Below are positions 14,087 to 43,008 of a DNA stretch of 64,000 nucleotides, one piece after another. The DNA is from Shimia abyssi (lineage in GTDB: Bacteria > Pseudomonadota > Alphaproteobacteria > Rhodobacterales > Rhodobacteraceae): positions 620,001 to 684,000 of the forward strand of contig NZ_PYGJ01000001.1 of the NCBI RefSeq assembly GCF_003014475.1, written 5' to 3'. The notes beneath the pieces are model-generated. The model saw nothing but the letters and a program-made list of their open reading frames with translations, ran no database searches and had not been told where the DNA came from. Made by a program: the position numbers and the translations under genes. Numbering within the stretch: position 1 is the first letter of the stretch; each line of letters opens with the position of its first letter.

Positions 14087-14093
14087 AAACGCG

Positions 14094-14110
14094 TTAACCC
14101 TTCGCTAACC
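14094..14110 (+). promoter_or_regulatory. CtrA-type box upstream of comM (one mismatch)
   Basis: TTAACCCTTCGCTAACC matches TTAA-N7-TTAAC except for one base in the second half. It lies about 50-60 bases before the comM start. A second, less regular TTTACCAATGTTAAC follows at about 14120-14134. CtrA is the cell-cycle-type response regulator of alphaproteobacteria and is known to control competence genes in Rhodobacterales; the binding here is predicted only. Confidence 0.45.
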
Positions 14111-14156
14111 ACACTTCGTTTACCAATGTTAACGGAGTGTGGTGAAAGGGTCGGTC

Positions 14157-15671
14157 ATGGTTTCGCGGGCATATACCGTGGCATTCGAAGGGGTCGAGGC
14201 GCATCAGGTCGAGGTGCAATGCGCCGTGACGCCCGGTTTGCCAGCCTTTTCAATCGTCGGTCTGCCCGACAAAGCCGTCTCCGAGGCGCGCGACCGGGTG
14301 CGCTCTGCACTGTCCTCGATGGCCATCGCGCTACCCTCTAAACGCATCACCATTAACCTTTCCCCTGCGGATTTGCCCAAAGAGGGCAGTCATTTTGACC
14401 TGCCCATCGCCGTTGCTTTGCTCGCCGCTCTTGGCATCATTCCCGACGATGCCGCCGAAGGCACGGTTTCCCTCGGCGAACTCTCGCTTGATGGCTCGCT
14501 TGTGCCCGTCACCGGCGCCCTGCCCGCGGCCATGTCCGCCGCCGAAGATGACAGGACCCTTCTCTGTCCACGCGCCAGTGGCTCCGAGGCCGCTTGGGTC
14601 GCTGCAACGCAGGTGATCGGGGCCAATTCGCTTGCCGACGTTGTGCGCCACTATACCGGTCAATCACCCCTGCCCCCGTCCGAGCCCGGCGAGGTCAACC
14701 CAGACACAAGCCCGCTCGACCTGTGCGACGTCAAAGGGCAGGAACGCGCCAAACGCGCGCTCGAAATCGCCGCCGCAGGGCGTCATCATCTCTTTATGAT
14801 TGGCGCGCCCGGATCGGGCAAATCCATGCTGGCCGCGCGCCTGCCCACAATCCTGCCGCCTCTCAGCCCCGCCGAAGCACTGGAAACCTCCATGATCCAC
14901 TCGGTCGCGGGGCTTTTGGATCAAGGCGGCATTTCCCGTGCGCGTCCGTTTCGCGAACCGCATCATACCGCATCCATGGCTGCAATTGTGGGCGGTGGAC
15001 GGCGCGCTACGCCCGGTGAAATCTCGCTCGCGCATAATGGCGTGTTGTTCATGGATGAAATTCCGGAATTCTCGCGTGCGGTGCTGGAAACCCTGCGACA
15101 GCCCATCGAGACCGGCAAAGTCATGATCGCGCGCGCCAATGCTCATGTCACTTATCCGTGCAAATTCATGCTTATCGCCGCCGCCAACCCCTGCCGCTGT
15201 GGCCAAATGTACGACCCAAATCGCGCCTGTTCACGTGCACCGATCTGTGGCGAAGACTATCTGGGCCGTCTGTCCGGCCCCTTGCTCGACCGGCTTGACT
15301 TGCGTATCGAAGTCCCGCCGGTTCAGTTCTCAGACCTCGACCTACCCGCCAATGGAGAAACCTCCGCCACCGTGCGCGAACGGGTGGTCGCAGCGCGCAT
15401 TCTGCAAGACAGCCGTTTCGCAAGCACGCCTGACATTCGCGCAAATGCCGACATGTCAGGCGCAGTGTTGGAAGAGTTGGCGACCCCGGACGCCGAGGGC
15501 CGCGCTTTCTTGGGCAAGGTCGCTGAACGTTTTGGCCTCACGGCGCGGGGCTATCACCGCGTCATGCGCGTGGCCCGCACCATCGCCGATCTTGCGGGCA
15601 GCGACACGGTGCGCAAACCCCATGTGGCCGAAGCGGTGAGCTTTCGCCTCACCGCCTCCAAAGAAGTATGA
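14157..15671 (+). CDS. comM: YifB/ComM family Mg-chelatase-like AAA+ ATPase
   Basis: A 504-aa protein made of an N-terminal Lon-like/ChlI fold (GLPAFSIVGLPDKAVSEARDRVRSAL), the AAA+ core with Walker A GAPGSGKSMLAARL and Walker B LFMDEIPEF, and a C-terminal domain with a four-Cys region (PCRCGQ to CSRAPICGEDYLGR). ComM is a hexameric helicase that promotes branch migration during natural transformation. The ATG at 14157 has AAAGGG six bases before it; a GTG at 14139 is an alternative. It ends directly against gshB on the other strand. CtrA-type sequences upstream suggest co-regulation with competence/motility. Confidence 0.9.
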   Translation: MVSRAYTVAFEGVEAHQVEVQCAVTPGLPAFSIVGLPDKAVSEARDRVRSALSSMAIALPSKRITINLSPADLPKEGSHFDLPIAVALLAALGIIPDDAAEGTVSLGELSLDGSLVPVTGALPAAMSAAEDDRTLLCPRASGSEAAWVAATQVIGANSLADVVRHYTGQSPLPPSEPGEVNPDTSPLDLCDVKGQERAKRALEIAAAGRHHLFMIGAPGSGKSMLAARLPTILPPLSPAEALETSMIHSVAGLLDQGGISRARPFREPHHTASMAAIVGGGRRATPGEISLAHNGVLFMDEIPEFSRAVLETLRQPIETGKVMIARANAHVTYPCKFMLIAAANPCRCGQMYDPNRACSRAPICGEDYLGRLSGPLLDRLDLRIEVPPVQFSDLDLPANGETSATVRERVVAARILQDSRFASTPDIRANADMSGAVLEELATPDAEGRAFLGKVAERFGLTARGYHRVMRVARTIADLAGSDTVRKPHVAEAVSFRLTASKEV

Positions 15672-37462: not shown

Positions 37463-38191
37463 TCAGCCACGCCCGATATAAGGCATCTTGGTCGCCATTA
37501 CCGTCATGAACTGCACGTTTGCCTCTGCTGGCATATTGGCCATGTGCAACACCGACGTCGCCGCATCGCGCACAGCCATTGTATCCAGCGCAGGCTTGCC
37601 AGAGGCCTCTAACGCCGCGTTCAATCCCGTCACCATGTCTGTTTCCGCGTTGCCAATGTCGATCTGTCCACAGGCAATATCAAATGGCCGCCCGTCCAGC
37701 GACAAAGTCCGCGTCATGCCCGTAATCGCGTGTTTGCTGGTGGTGTAACAGATTGATCCGTCACGCGGCGAATAGGCCGAGATCGACCCGTTATTGATGA
37801 TCCGCCCACCCTGCGGATCTTGGGCGCGCATCTGCTTAAACGCCAGTCTTGCAGCAATGAACATGCCGCGCACATTCACATTCATCACCTGATCAAACTC
37901 TGCCACGTCCAGCGCATCAATTGTGCCCGCACGGCCAAACATCCCCGCATTGTTGAACAACACGTCCAACCGACCAGTTTCCTCGGAAAACGCGTCAAAC
38001 GCCGACGCCATAGCCTCCGGATCCGTCACATCTGCTGGCAATGGCACGGCCGTGTCATAGCGATCAGCCAAATGTTCCAGCTTGTCACCACTGCGCGCGA
38101 TCAGCCCCACACGCCAGCCCGCCTCCAGAAACATTTCTGCCGTCGCTCGCCCAATGCCTTGACTTGCACCAGTCACAATCGCCGTTTTCAT
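37463..38191 (-). CDS. SDR family oxidoreductase
   Basis: A 242-aa classical short-chain dehydrogenase: cofactor loop TGASQGIGRATAE, NNAG, then the catalytic Ser (NNGSISAYS) and YTTSK (Tyr and Lys intact). The residues after the second beta strand (ARSGDK) favour NADP(H). The substrate cannot be inferred. It overlaps the helicase gene upstream by four bases, so it may ride on that transcript. Confidence 0.85.
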   Translation of the reverse strand: MKTAIVTGASQGIGRATAEMFLEAGWRVGLIARSGDKLEHLADRYDTAVPLPADVTDPEAMASAFDAFSEETGRLDVLFNNAGMFGRAGTIDALDVAEFDQVMNVNVRGMFIAARLAFKQMRAQDPQGGRIINNGSISAYSPRDGSICYTTSKHAITGMTRTLSLDGRPFDIACGQIDIGNAETDMVTGLNAALEASGKPALDTMAVRDAATSVLHMANMPAEANVQFMTVMATKMPYIGRG

Positions 38192-39717
38192 ATCGCATCC
38201 TCCTGCTCCAGCGCCAGCGGTACCGGTGCCGCGCGCAAATCATCCACCACGAGTGGCCCTGTCGGCTTGGCCAACCGGTTGCGCACCACCCAATAAAGCC
38301 GATCTGACGCCCGCGTAATCGCGACATAAGCCAACCGTTTCCACAACGGTTGCCCGGCCTCAACCCGACCCATACGCGCCGCAACAAACAGATCTGGCGC
38401 AAACACCTGCACGTTTTCCCACTGCGAACCTTGCGCCTTGTGAATGGTCACCGCCGCGCCATGCAGAAACGTCGCCCCCATGCGCGCGGCAAAGGGGATA
38501 AACGGTTCTTCTTCGTCTGGCATTTCGATTTTCACGATTGAGGCTGCCGAAACGCGTGGGTCTTCGGCCCCCATCACATGCAGACGGGAAAACCCCGGTT
38601 TACGACCCGGCCCCAAGTAAATCACCTGCGCACCTTTGATCAGGCCACGCGCCTCCAGATCCAACCGTTTCTTGCGATGCTTAAGCGGCAACTCAAGCCC
38701 GTCACAAATCAGCGGCTCCCCTTCCAACAGCTCATCGTCCGGTGCCCCATGCACCTGCCGGAACGCATTGATCAGCCGCACCCGTGTCGCATTGCGCCAA
38801 ACCAAAACGGGTGAACGCGCCATCAGATCGACCTCGACCCGCTGCGCCAACACGACCCGATCATCCTTTTTCGCGCTCTCCTCGACCATACGCTCAAAAT
38901 CATGAAACTGCAGGTCAGGATCCGCCAGCGCATGGGCCAGATCCAGGATCGGGTTATCAGCTTCTTGTCGGTGAATGCGCTGCAATTCATGCCGTGACTC
39001 GATCGGTAATTTGTCAAACACCATCGCGCCCGACTGGTTCACCGGAGCCAACTGCGCCGGGTCGCCGAACAACAACAGCGTGTCAAAGATTTCCCGCAGA
39101 TCCTCATATTGTTTGTCGTCCAGCATCGAACTTTCATCAACAAAACCGATATCCAGCGGGTCGTCCCGCCGCTTCCAGCCAGTGATAAAATCTGATCCGC
39201 GCAATCCCGCCGCCGCCAATGCGCCAGGGATGGACTTGTGCAATTTATAGAACTCAGCCGCCCGGTCCAGCGCCTCATCGGTCAGCCCCTCTACCTCGGG
39301 GCGCTCGCCATTTCCGGCCAGCCATTCGGCAATGCGTTCGTATTCCGGGTCATAAACCGGCGTGTAAATGATCCGGTGAATGGTGGTCGCTGGCACGCCG
39401 CGCATCCGCAGTACACTTGCTGCCTTGTTGGTTGGTGCCAGCACCGCCAGCGTGCGGCCATCTTTGCGCTTTTTGCCCTCGTAATCGCCCGACACAATGT
39501 CGACCCCGGCCTCCTCAAGCGCTTTGACCAGCTCGGCCAGCAACAGCGTTTTGCCGGATCCCGCCTTGCCCATCACCGCTGCCACGGTTTGTTTGCCATT
39601 GCGCGGCGGGGTTAGCAGGTTGTCTTCCAGATCCACCCCGACGCTACGCAGCATCTCGGCAATTGCGTCAAAGGCATCCGCCTGATCATGGCTAAGTGTA
39701 AGGGCTGTCTGATCCAT
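38188..39717 (-). CDS. RecD-like superfamily 1B DNA helicase
   Basis: A 509-aa ATP-dependent helicase. Motif I AVMGKAGSGKTLLLAEL, motif Ia VLAPTNKAASVLR, motif II FVDESSMLDD, motif III LLFGDPAQLAP, motif IV region RIHRQEADNPI, and the UvrD C-terminal motifs TIHKAQGSQW and AITRASDRLY. It lacks the long N-terminal region of RecD2, so it is a short RecD/Pif1-like helicase, as found in many Rhodobacterales. A role in DNA repair or recombination is likely but unassigned. It follows luxI on the same strand by 42 bases, so read-through from the quorum-sensing locus is possible. Confidence 0.88.
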   Translation of the reverse strand: MDQTALTLSHDQADAFDAIAEMLRSVGVDLEDNLLTPPRNGKQTVAAVMGKAGSGKTLLLAELVKALEEAGVDIVSGDYEGKKRKDGRTLAVLAPTNKAASVLRMRGVPATTIHRIIYTPVYDPEYERIAEWLAGNGERPEVEGLTDEALDRAAEFYKLHKSIPGALAAAGLRGSDFITGWKRRDDPLDIGFVDESSMLDDKQYEDLREIFDTLLLFGDPAQLAPVNQSGAMVFDKLPIESRHELQRIHRQEADNPILDLAHALADPDLQFHDFERMVEESAKKDDRVVLAQRVEVDLMARSPVLVWRNATRVRLINAFRQVHGAPDDELLEGEPLICDGLELPLKHRKKRLDLEARGLIKGAQVIYLGPGRKPGFSRLHVMGAEDPRVSAASIVKIEMPDEEEPFIPFAARMGATFLHGAAVTIHKAQGSQWENVQVFAPDLFVAARMGRVEAGQPLWKRLAYVAITRASDRLYWVVRNRLAKPTGPLVVDDLRAAPVPLALEQEDAI

Positions 39718-39759: not shown

Positions 39760-40407
39760 TCACGCCGATTGCGCGAATTCCACCAAAGCTGCGCCTGCAT
39801 CACTGCCAAATGCGGCCTCGAACCATGCCCGCGATTGCGCCGGGTCCAGACCTGCGCGTTCGGCCACCTTGGCGCGCGCCTCTTCGGTAAAACTCCACAG
39901 ACCAACACTGATCTGTTCGCGCCCTTTGCCTTCTGATCCCAACACCTCGGGCGATGATCCGATCAGGCGGTAAATCCGCACCATGCGCGCGTCAAACACA
40001 CCGACGTAGTGTTCCACACCAAATCCGGTCATTACCTCGCCACCCGCCAGCATCAGCGCAGCCGCCGTACGCGGTTCTGCGTCACGCGCCAGACAGAACC
40101 GGGTGCATTCCCAGATCAGCGGGCTTTCGATCCGCACACCATCCGTCAGGTTCAAGAAATGATCGTTGACCATGCATGGCCCCGTCGTCGGCAATAACCG
40201 CATCGAGCCGCCATGGCTTCCGTCCGGCTTTTCCCAGATCACATAGAGCGGGTTCAGCGCGTCGTATTCGTCGCGCTCCTCACCGTTCTCATCCACGTTC
40301 ACGTCCCAGTTCAGACGCGTCTTGAACTGATCGGAACGATCCAGGAACATCGTACGCTTCAGTTTTGGAAAATTGTCGAGTTGATCCGCATAAATATAAT
40401 GGAGCAT
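39760..40407 (-). CDS. luxI: acyl-homoserine-lactone synthase
   Basis: A 215-aa LuxI-family autoinducer synthase that makes N-acyl homoserine lactones from SAM and acyl-ACP. Conserved residues are visible: Arg and Trp in FKTRLNWDVNV, the acidic DEYD, SMRLLPT, and the IWECTRFCL motif with Glu and Arg. Threonine or serine at the acyl-pocket position cannot be assigned safely, so chain length is not predicted. It lies 81 bases downstream of luxR on the same strand, with a CtrA-type sequence in between. I saw no clear classical lux box. Confidence 0.92.
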   Translation of the reverse strand: MLHYIYADQLDNFPKLKRTMFLDRSDQFKTRLNWDVNVDENGEERDEYDALNPLYVIWEKPDGSHGGSMRLLPTTGPCMVNDHFLNLTDGVRIESPLIWECTRFCLARDAEPRTAAALMLAGGEVMTGFGVEHYVGVFDARMVRIYRLIGSSPEVLGSEGKGREQISVGLWSFTEEARAKVAERAGLDPAQSRAWFEAAFGSDAGAALVEFAQSA

Positions 40408-40488: not shown

Positions 40489-41211
40489 TTAACCATTTGA
40501 GACAACAATCAAACCGCGACTCATCGCCTGAGCAACCGCATGGGTTGTATTTAGAGCGCCCAGCTTGAACCGCGCACTCTCAATATAGACCCGCAAAGTA
40601 TGCTCAGAGATCGACAGAGTCTCTGCCACCTGCGCGCGCGAATACCCCATCGCGATCAATGTCATCGCGTCCACTTCTCGCGGAGACAGGGCACGCTGCT
40701 GATCCGGCGTGCGCCCGGGTTCCAGCTCCAGCGCCTTTTGATTGAACTCGTGTGCGATCAAGATGAGATCCCGCCGATTGGCGTCCGTGAATGTGGCCCA
40801 GGTGTCATCGTCACAGTGGTGGCTGACCGAAAAAAGGGCGAACTGACCATTGGGGCCACGGATCGGAATCGAAAAGCCCTGATTGCCGATCCCATGGTCA
40901 ATGGCTTCTTTTTGAAACTCTCTCGCGGCCTTGCTGGACCAGTCGAGACGCTTCCAATCAACCGGATGAAACCTTTGATAACACCCGATAATTACCGGAT
41001 CGACCCGAATATAGTTCCGATCCAGATAGCGCTGCACCCAAATGGGCGAGTATGTTCCGCACCCATATTGTTCGCCAGAGCTGCTGACCCAGTGATAGAC
41101 CATATGGTCCACACTGAAATGCTCGCGCAGCTCTTCTATCGCGCCTTGTAGAGCCTCAAGCCCTTGCGCGCTCTCTAACTCCTCTAATAACGTTTCCCGT
41201 TTTTGCGTCAT
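40489..41211 (-). CDS. luxR: LuxR family autoinducer-binding transcriptional regulator
   Basis: A 240-aa regulator. The N-terminal autoinducer-binding domain (about 10-160) has the conserved YIRVDPVI (Asp-Pro) and later Trp residues; the C-terminal GerE-type helix-turn-helix is LSPREVDAMTLIAMGYSRAQVAETLSIS with EHTLRVYIESARFKLGA. Paired with luxI, it should respond to the AHL made by that enzyme. The start is ATG at 41211 (MTQKRET); ATG at 41217 is an alternative. Either start lies inside the 71-aa gene upstream, overlapping it by about 56 bases in another frame. Confidence 0.9.
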   Translation of the reverse strand: MTQKRETLLEELESAQGLEALQGAIEELREHFSVDHMVYHWVSSSGEQYGCGTYSPIWVQRYLDRNYIRVDPVIIGCYQRFHPVDWKRLDWSSKAAREFQKEAIDHGIGNQGFSIPIRGPNGQFALFSVSHHCDDDTWATFTDANRRDLILIAHEFNQKALELEPGRTPDQQRALSPREVDAMTLIAMGYSRAQVAETLSISEHTLRVYIESARFKLGALNTTHAVAQAMSRGLIVVSNG

Positions 41212-41371
41212 CCCCATGTCGCGCCGTTCCCACCTTTTCAGCCATCGAAACGATCTCGCATGCGGCGACCATCCGGGTGTCATCCAGCTGGTCAGCCAAA
41301 TCCTCCAGACCATTCGCCAAAGCAAAAGTCCGCAGATCAGCAAGAACGTCGAGTATCCAGTCGTTTTTCAT
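41156..41371 (-). CDS. small protein overlapping the luxR start
   Basis: A 71-aa frame starting MKNDWILDVLADLRTFALANGLEDLADQL, followed by DDTRMVAACEIVS. It is not a recognised family with known function, but I recall similar short proteins upstream of luxR genes in Roseobacter-type genomes, which supports it being real. The first 35 residues look like a helical, acidic domain; the last 20 are Arg/Gly/Asp-rich and may be shaped by the overlap with luxR. Its ATG is 25-40 bases downstream of a perfect CtrA-type box, so it is probably the first gene of the luxR transcript and may couple or tune luxR translation. Confidence 0.6.
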   Translation of the reverse strand: MKNDWILDVLADLRTFALANGLEDLADQLDDTRMVAACEIVSMAEKVGTARHGDDAKTGNVIRGVRERARA

Positions 41372-41393
41372 AATTGACTCTCGTTTTCAGTGG

Positions 41394-41408
41394 TTAATGA
41401 AAGGTTAA
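41394..41408 (-). promoter_or_regulatory. perfect CtrA-type box upstream of the luxR unit
   Basis: On the minus strand TTAACCTTTCATTAACC gives TTAA-N7-TTAAC with no mismatch, 23-37 bases before the ATG of the 71-aa gene. The spacing suits a site overlapping the promoter. In Rhodobacterales the CtrA phosphorelay and quorum sensing are known to be linked. Confidence 0.6.
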
Positions 41409-41524
41409 TACAAGCATAGCACGAACGCTTCTTGTTAAGATATTCGCTGATTTTCTCTCCCCAGAAATAGTGAGGGGGCGTTCTGCAAGGCTTTGAATTA
41501 CCTAAAAGCCCTTTCCAAAACGTA

Positions 41525-41597: not shown

Positions 41598-42884
41598 TTA
41601 TTTTCCGGCGTCCAGAACGTCTTCGACTGTACGCAGGCCCGTCTTGGGCGACTGCACCAGCACCGCCATATTGCCCGGCTTGTGCTCGTTATTCATCATC
41701 TTGGTGTGCGCAGCCGGGATCTCTTCCCACGCAAACACTTCTGACATGCACGGGTCCAGACGGCGATCGATCATCAAACGGTTCGCCGATGCTGCCTGCT
41801 TCAAGTTGGCAAAGTGCGATCCCTGAAGACGCTTCTGGTGCATCCACATGTAACGCACGTCAAACGTGGTGTTGAACCCGCTGGTCCCGGCACAGATCAC
41901 AACGATCCCGCCTTTCTTCACAACCAGCGTCGAAACAGGGAATGTCGCCTCACCTGGATGTTCGAACACCATATCCACGCTCACACCCTTGCCGGTGATG
42001 TCCCAGATCGCTTTACCGAACTTGCGCGCCTCCTTGAGCCACTCATTATACTCAGGTGAGTTCACGGTGGGCAGTTGCCCCCAACACTTGAACTCTTTGC
42101 GATTGATCACGCCCTTGGCGCCCTGATCCATCACGAACTGTCGCTTGCTCTCGTCCGAGATCACGCCGATCGCATTGGCACCCGCCGTGTTGGCCAACTG
42201 GATCGCATACGACCCCAATCCGCCCGACGCGCCCCAGACCAGAACGTTCTGACCGGGCTTCAGTTCGTGCGGGTGGTGGCCAAACAGCATCCGGTATGCC
42301 GTCGCCAGCGTCAGCGTGTAACACGCCGCCTCTTCCCAGGTCAGATGCTTGGGGCGCGGCATCAGCTGTTGCGCCTGAACCCTTGTGAACTGGGCAAATG
42401 ACCCGTCACCCGTCTCATAGCCCCAGATCCGCTGCGTCGGAGAAAACATCGGATCGCCACCGTTGCATTCTTCGTCGTCGCCATCATCCTGGTTACAGTG
42501 AATGACAACCTCGTCGCCCACTTTCCACGTCTTGACCTTGTCACCAACGGCCCAAACGATGCCCGACGCGTCCGACCCGGCAATGTGGTAATCCTGACCG
42601 TGCACATCAAACGGGCTGATCGGAACACCTTTGCCCGCCCAGACACCATTATAGTTCACGCCCGCGGCCATCACGAGCACCAGAACTTCGTGGCTGTCGA
42701 TTTCCCAGGTGTCTACAACTTCCTTCTGGAATGAGACCTCCGGGTCGCCATGGCGTTCGCGACGGATCGCCCACGCATACATCTGTTTGGGTACATGTCC
42801 CAGCGGAGGCATCTCCCCTACTTCATAAAGGTCCTTCTTGGGAGCCTCATACGCTGCAATTGCGCTCTCGGTGTCCAAAGCCAT
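41598..42884 (-). CDS. ccrA: crotonyl-CoA carboxylase/reductase
   Basis: A 428-aa enzyme that reductively carboxylates crotonyl-CoA to ethylmalonyl-CoA with NADPH, the key step of the ethylmalonyl-CoA pathway for acetyl-CoA assimilation. It is a medium-chain dehydrogenase-like protein: GVPISPFDVHGQDYHIAGSDASG near the start, the cofactor loop VWGASGGLGSYAIQLA, and GTSGFNTTFDVRYMWMHQKRLQGSHFAN near the end, distinctive of Ccr. The ATG at 42884 (MALDTESAIA) has CAGGAGG upstream. The partner gene ecm is 2.3 kb away. Confidence 0.97.
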   Translation of the reverse strand: MALDTESAIAAYEAPKKDLYEVGEMPPLGHVPKQMYAWAIRRERHGDPEVSFQKEVVDTWEIDSHEVLVLVMAAGVNYNGVWAGKGVPISPFDVHGQDYHIAGSDASGIVWAVGDKVKTWKVGDEVVIHCNQDDGDDEECNGGDPMFSPTQRIWGYETGDGSFAQFTRVQAQQLMPRPKHLTWEEAACYTLTLATAYRMLFGHHPHELKPGQNVLVWGASGGLGSYAIQLANTAGANAIGVISDESKRQFVMDQGAKGVINRKEFKCWGQLPTVNSPEYNEWLKEARKFGKAIWDITGKGVSVDMVFEHPGEATFPVSTLVVKKGGIVVICAGTSGFNTTFDVRYMWMHQKRLQGSHFANLKQAASANRLMIDRRLDPCMSEVFAWEEIPAAHTKMMNNEHKPGNMAVLVQSPKTGLRTVEDVLDAGK

Positions 42885-43008
42885 AGTCGCCTCCTGTGTC
42901 AAACATGTTGCCGCGATGCAGAATCGCGCTGTCTGAAGATGAAATATCGACGCTAACGCAACATTGCAACCACATTTGGGTTCATTTTGAAATTTTATAA
43001 CCCAGCAG

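Follow-up and report, generated by a model that had tools for sequence, protein, structure and literature searches.

The quorum-sensing genes luxR2I2 of Dinoroseobacter shibae (DSHI_2852/2851) belong to the gene arrangement that Cude and Buchan defined as topology B1, and luxR1I1 (DSHI_0311/0312) is placed in the same table under topology C, according to the available text of their paper (PMC3824088). In the accessible part of Wang et al. 2014 (PMC4046655), the luxR2 promoter of D. shibae is described as carrying CtrA sites and luxR2I2 as standing under CtrA influence. Mutants in ctrA, cckA and chpT contain less luxR2I2 mRNA, strongly so without ctrA, from which the authors conclude activation. 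After the addition of AHL, luxR2 and luxI2 rise later than ctrA. The sites for CtrA in quorum-sensing promoters of Rhodobacterales are called scattered and independently evolved in the same text (PMC4046655). The CtrA link at the promoter of luxR2I2, to which the locus considered here is orthologous, has thus already been published, and the basic idea is not new. The initial annotation of this DNA had named the cross-wiring of CtrA and AHL signalling in Rhodobacterales such as Dinoroseobacter as known.

In Caulobacter, activation is associated with full CtrA sites near -35, and repression with half sites that overlie the -10, as stated in the available part of PMC4287350; a paper on R. sphaeroides restates the -35/-10 rule in the text accessible (PMC6180460). 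For the ctrA gene of Caulobacter itself, one full site has been inferred to activate P2 from -39 and to repress P3 from -14 (PMC4287350).

The ccr-luxR-luxI locus and its CtrA-type box

The locus lies in the window, i.e., the whole 64-kb stretch of DNA that was analyzed. The following features are referred to below:

37463..38191, minus strand: short-chain dehydrogenase after the helicase (SDR families, none above the cut-off; expected in topology B1)
38188..39717, minus strand: RecD2-like helicase 3' of luxI (TIGR01448, E 9.4e-17, far under the cut-off; such a gene belongs to topology B)
39760..40407, minus strand: luxI, AHL synthase of 215 aa (PF00765, E 1.2e-22)
40489..41211, minus strand: luxR, 240 aa, autoinducer-binding domain and GerE HTH (PF03472, E 5.6e-35; PF00196, E 7.5e-11; domain search run on 40489-41226)
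41156..41371, minus strand: small ORF, conserved protein of 71 aa between ccr and luxR
41378..41382, minus strand: Shine-Dalgarno-like GAGAG of the small ORF, read from the sequence
41394..41408, minus strand: CtrA-type full site TTAACCTTTCATTAA, the next base being C at 41393
41413..41421, minus strand: extended -10-like element TGCTATGCT, placing the predicted +1 near 41406, within the box
41457..41474, minus strand: imperfect palindrome CTCACTATTTCTGGGGAG, a candidate lux box, centred near -59
41598..42902, minus strand: crotonyl-CoA reductase type gene (ccr), 5' of the quorum-sensing unit (PF00107, PF08240; named from the synteny of topology B)
14093..14110, plus strand: second-best CtrA-type site of the window, GTTAACCCTTCGCTAACC, with one core mismatch, before comM (ORF 14139-15671, named by eye from its translation)

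The order of ccr, small ORF, luxR, luxI, helicase and short-chain dehydrogenase is that of the Roseobacter topology B1, and the locus is orthologous to luxR2I2 of Dinoroseobacter shibae. Shimia aestuarii and Thiosulfatihalobacter marinus, each with 83% LuxR identity, are the nearest named relatives found.

The small gene that had been described as overlapping luxR is present as a 71-aa ORF sharing 56 nt with luxR (ATG at 41211). It stands 5' of luxR in all 80 named loci and in 106 of 109 further loci, and one copy was found in the genome. Differences at third codon positions are 1.7 and 2.3 times as frequent as those at first and second ones, respectively. The protein has the consensus DWILDVLxDLKxFAxxNGLxxLAEQLxDT and a predicted fold of two helices (mean pLDDT 78). 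It has no match in Pfam or NCBIfam, and a structure search returned nothing at E <= 0.001. As a candidate role, it could act on the product of the overlapping luxR.

The TTAA-N7-TTAAC box on the minus strand was likewise found as the initial annotation had it, positioned 23-37 nt 5' of the ATG at 41371; from 41408 to 41392 this strand reads TTAACCTTTCATTAACC. Both TTAA-N7-TTAA (41394-41408) and the extended TTAA-N7-TTAAC (41393-41408, minus strand) occur once in the window. Shuffled windows contained them 0.14 and 0.11 times on average, and at least once in 12 and 10 of 100 shuffles, respectively. With 19 full sites in 4.73 Mb, the genome holds about one per 250 kb, so that a lone site in 64 kb is unremarkable by itself. 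A reversed-pattern control is commoner genome-wide (66 per strand), and full sites are not enriched by that measure, which is rough because the background frequency may differ between TTAA and AATT. What stands above chance for this box is its position-specific conservation and not the number of sites. Other perfect TTAA-N7-TTAAC sites of the same genome (L102, L089 and L086) lie near MotB-like, ClpP-like and ribonucleotide-reductase-like genes, all named by eye. A GANTC at 41376-41380 on the minus strand, which we take to be a possible CcrM methylation site, overlaps the Shine-Dalgarno sequence of the small ORF and by eye is missing in many relatives.

Conservation of the box and the CtrA motif

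Orthologous loci were sought in 198 genomes, of which 179 gave a match; among the matches listed down to E ~5e-40 there were 121 genomes other than that of the window. Twelve of the 121 were left out (G139, G118, G069, G095, G061, G083, G013, G160, G177, G008, G054 and G098), several being near contig ends, split, partial or less than 40% identical, while G069 and G139 were simply omitted. The resulting 109 loci each represent a different genus of the same family and have LuxR identities of 40-78%. Exclusion of three without the small ORF left 106. The named set shares species with these 106 loci and is not independent of them.

The N7 spacing, on whose conservation in relatives the initial annotation had made its claim depend, is kept upstream of orthologous luxR genes. 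An exact TTAA-N7-TTAA is present 5' of the small ORF in 84 of the 106 loci, compared with 0 or 1 occurrence for each of the spacings 0-6 and 8-15 in the same stretch. With the start of the small ORF as placed here, the distance from box to small ORF is 34-39 nt in 83 of these 84 loci, and the remaining one has a box solely at 47 nt; 68 of 85 full-site occurrences lie 36-37 nt before the small-ORF start. The remainder of the same loci contains TTAA-N7-TTAA six times in 284,170 bp. Eight of the 22 loci where the exact box is absent have a box with one core mismatch. Among the 84 boxes, the seven spacer bases occur in 70 distinct versions; thus, the cores are held while the remainder drifts, core conservation inside this set being true by definition, as it was picked for exact cores. 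The named set has the exact box within 150 nt 5' of the small ORF in 68 of 81 loci (window included). With one mismatch tolerated, 74 of 81 loci could be anchored; in these the core positions hold 1.8-2.0 bits, to some extent as a result of this selection, and the stretch 18-29 nt upstream about 0.1.

That 84 of 106 genera have the exact box speaks for an old origin of the site, apparently common to most sampled genera of the family, as opposed to the published view of scattered, independently evolved sites. Before luxI, a full CtrA site was found in exact form in 1 of 73 loci, a number that rises to 15 when one mismatch is tolerated; a site upstream of luxI is therefore not a conserved feature.

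A CtrA equivalog is encoded in the genome (NF045991, 429 bits at a cut-off of 350). Co-loss of ctrA and box was considered as a test and found powerless: CtrA is present in 182 of 198 genomes at E <= 1e-60, and being near universal, its loss cannot be set against box loss. In genome G006, which has the box (L166), no protein reaches the family cut-off for CtrA. All that was found is a C-terminal part of CtrA (residues 119-224) on contig C58 (L235), beside a transposase-like gene recognized by eye.

In D. shibae, the genes comM, comEC and comF are regarded as CtrA-regulated from predicted sites and AHL response, according to the text available of PMC6473078. Promoters of comM were collected here from 30 of the 95 matching genomes among 100 searched. 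A matrix derived from the luxR boxes places the comM site second in the window. It gave the 30 promoters a median score of 16.3 (minimum 7.2), and the in-gene control a median of -14.8 (maximum -2.9). This matrix is biased towards luxR, its independent version being the matrix built on comM promoters from 29 other genera. With the latter, the luxR box ranks first in the window (24.3) and the comM site second (19.1), and 93 of the 106 luxR promoters score above the highest control. All 30 comM boxes deviate from the eight-base core, the best-matching position having one mismatch in 23 promoters and two in the other 7; the consensus is GTTAACCATTCGTTAACC at luxR and GTTAACCATTCTTAAACC at comM. 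The luxR-derived matrix also gives 24.1 to the site 5' of the ClpP-like gene (named by eye), and clpP of D. shibae is reported with a CtrA site in the accessible part of PMC4046655.

The comparison with flagellar promoters that the initial annotation had proposed covered one contig with one rod-protein match; the luxR-derived matrix gives this contig 12.6 and the luxR box 28.0. The upstream region of the genome's own ctrA scores 6.3. The strength of the motif therefore varies among the targets expected for CtrA. Work on Ruegeria KLH11 cautions, with cckA as its case, that a site resembling the CtrA motif does not by itself establish control. Judged from these sequence comparisons, the luxR box is very probably a direct site of CtrA. 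The direct CtrA input into luxR that was proposed at the outset is well supported in silico; as an idea it had been published before, and it does not imply activation.

Promoter layout and the sign of control

Shortly 5' of the box, TGnTAnnnT occurs in 73 of 84 loci, at the identical distance in 58; control upstream sequence contains it twice in 8,400 bp. We take this element to be a putative -10 from its likeness to the sigma-70 class. With the first base of the -10 hexamer set to -12, the 5' end of the box falls at predicted -2 in 58 of 73 loci, and the predicted leader of the small ORF is 32-37 nt long in 72 of 73. The luxR box thus spans predicted -2 to +13 and overlaps the predicted start point. 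A purine run resembling a Shine-Dalgarno sequence stands before the small ORF in 71 of 84 loci. When the searched stretch was displaced by 40, 60, 80 and 120 nt, this pattern turned up in 3, 25, 81 and 7 of 106 loci, respectively, the 81 matches at 80 nt being the GGGGAG of the upstream palindrome.

A CtrA-activated promoter is expected to have a full site near -39 and a -10 about 27 nt after the site start, and luxR promoters are built differently. The extended -10 stands directly 5' of the box in 73 of 84 luxR promoters and in 0 of 30 comM promoters. Since the luxR box lies 3' of the -10-like element and not at -35, it does not follow that a CtrA box means a CtrA-activated gene. Its geometry suggests an operator for repression or a roadblock, and, given a direct CtrA site, repression or gating is slightly favoured as its function. 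An antisense promoter reading of the region was considered by eye only.

Direct activation of the luxRI operon by CtrA, as published for luxR2I2 of D. shibae, would agree with the lowered luxR2I2 expression in the ctrA, cckA and chpT mutants, with the promoter sites and with the order of induction after AHL, as far as given in the available text. However, a TA placed as activation would require (+26 to +29, counted from the start of the box) was found in 3 of 84 luxR promoters as against 24 of 30 for comM, and the luxR box is 3' of a conserved -10-like element. Furthermore, a start spaced for a site at -39 would land on the ATG of the small ORF, which yet has Shine-Dalgarno-like purines in most loci. 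Direct activation is held to be unlikely, although it is the most serious of the alternatives. The D. shibae data are opposite in sign to simple repression unless the effect is indirect, and for this reason repression has only about an even chance. Either the effect in D. shibae is indirect (e.g., through the AHL loop), or there is a second start, or the start point is wrongly placed.

A second start is what a two-promoter switch would involve: CtrA would repress the start at 41406 and activate another near the small-ORF ATG, giving luxR mRNA without the small protein. This would reconcile the D. shibae data, and one site has been inferred to do both at P3/P2 of Caulobacter ctrA (PMC4287350, part of the text). 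The tightly kept distance from box to ATG, 36-37 nt in 68 of 85 occurrences, fits as well. Against it, a second -10 at the activation spacing was sought in the luxR promoters and none is conserved (3 of 84), and such a switch is considered improbable.

A lux box is a palindrome of about 18-20 bp that is bound by LuxR. The 18-bp consensus CTCCCCATTTNTGGGGAG, drawn from the same loci in which the palindrome was counted, specifies 17 bases; 96 of 106 loci match it at 12 or more of these, as against 0 of 106 equal stretches inside ccr. The palindrome starts 63-68 nt 5' of the box, or of its usual place, in 93 of 96 loci. Its symmetry is modest, as just 4-6 of 9 pairs are complementary in 75 of 96. 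Of the 22 loci lacking the exact box, 18 retain this palindrome, suggesting that it has a regulator of its own. With LuxR as the obvious candidate regulator, the palindrome may be LuxR's own site.

The box itself might instead be the autoregulatory operator of LuxR and not a CtrA site. The regulator gene adjoins it, sites of the GTTAAC-N5-GTTAAC kind are near-palindromic, and TTAA-N7-TTAAC is found on both strands in 48 of 106 loci. But the same motif stands 5' of comM and of the ClpP-like gene, and box-less loci retain luxR and mostly the other palindrome, so that this reading must be rated very unlikely. A chance match in an AT-rich intergenic stretch, for which the 19 full sites of the genome and the 12 of 100 shuffles with one could be cited, is already refuted by the recurrence of the box at the same position in 84 of 106 loci and can be neglected.

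In the preferred reading, RNA polymerase would initiate around 41406, within the box, AHL-bound LuxR would activate from the palindrome near -59, and phosphorylated CtrA, lying across -2 to +13, would block the polymerase. CtrA would then directly gate or repress the quorum-sensing operon, closing a loop with the known arm from quorum sensing to CtrA. The proposal as a whole, a CtrA operator in the promoter of small ORF, luxR and luxI with CtrA gating or repressing and LuxR activating near -59, is evenly balanced between right and wrong on the sequence evidence. Its extension to an ancestral CtrA repression of ccr-linked luxRI by start-point occupancy, with AHL-LuxR activating from -59 across Rhodobacteraceae, is put forward tentatively and with somewhat less confidence; it would amount to a negative feedback of the cell-cycle phosphorelay on quorum sensing, with the sign reversed relative to the D. 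shibae model in print.

If CtrA gates quorum sensing, loss of the box would raise luxRI expression, whereas the published activation model would have it lowered. The sign decides whether the loop of quorum sensing and CtrA in marine roseobacters is positive or negative, which in turn bears on the timing of population heterogeneity, motility and gene transfer agents. One predicted site has become a widely conserved putative operator.

Comparison with known systems

The luxR2I2 genes of D. shibae (PMC4046655; Koppenhoefer et al. 2019, PMC6473078) likewise show topology B1. A locus that is probably that of D. shibae (L136, G035:C1) has the layout of -10 and box, and a copy of the palindrome, as in the window. 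In the available text, two perfect CtrA sites are published for luxR2; the ccr-luxR stretch of L136 has one 17-bp palindrome, GTTAATGTTTCGTTAAC, which matches on both strands. The two published sites may thus be one palindrome counted twice. Published as CtrA-activated, as far as the accessible text goes, luxR2I2 differs in sign from the repression that the layout here suggests.

The small ORF was considered as the reason why earlier surveys would have missed the box; this was dropped, since the 400 bp 5' of the start that the surveys searched include it. In the open-licence full texts searched, no report was found of family-wide conservation, of the start-point position or of the palindrome. 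The predicted placement of a full CtrA site at -2 to +13 and the palindrome centred near -59 are apparently new relative to that literature.

In the same family, the comM promoters have the CtrA motif in common with the luxR box. They differ in that the comM box starts near predicted -39, 5' of the -10, and the luxR box is 3' of the -10. Quorum sensing and CtrA are wired together also in the SsaRI-CtrA circuit of Ruegeria KLH11, whose authors suggest a feedback on ssaRI; unlike for the luxR box here, no CtrA site is reported there in the accessible part of the paper (PMC3692519). A likeness in position is offered by the CtrA-repressed promoters P1 and P3 of Caulobacter ctrA, where the site lies over the core promoter and not at -35 (available text of PMC4287350), as is predicted for the luxR box. 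Those sites start at -14, and the luxR box at predicted -2.
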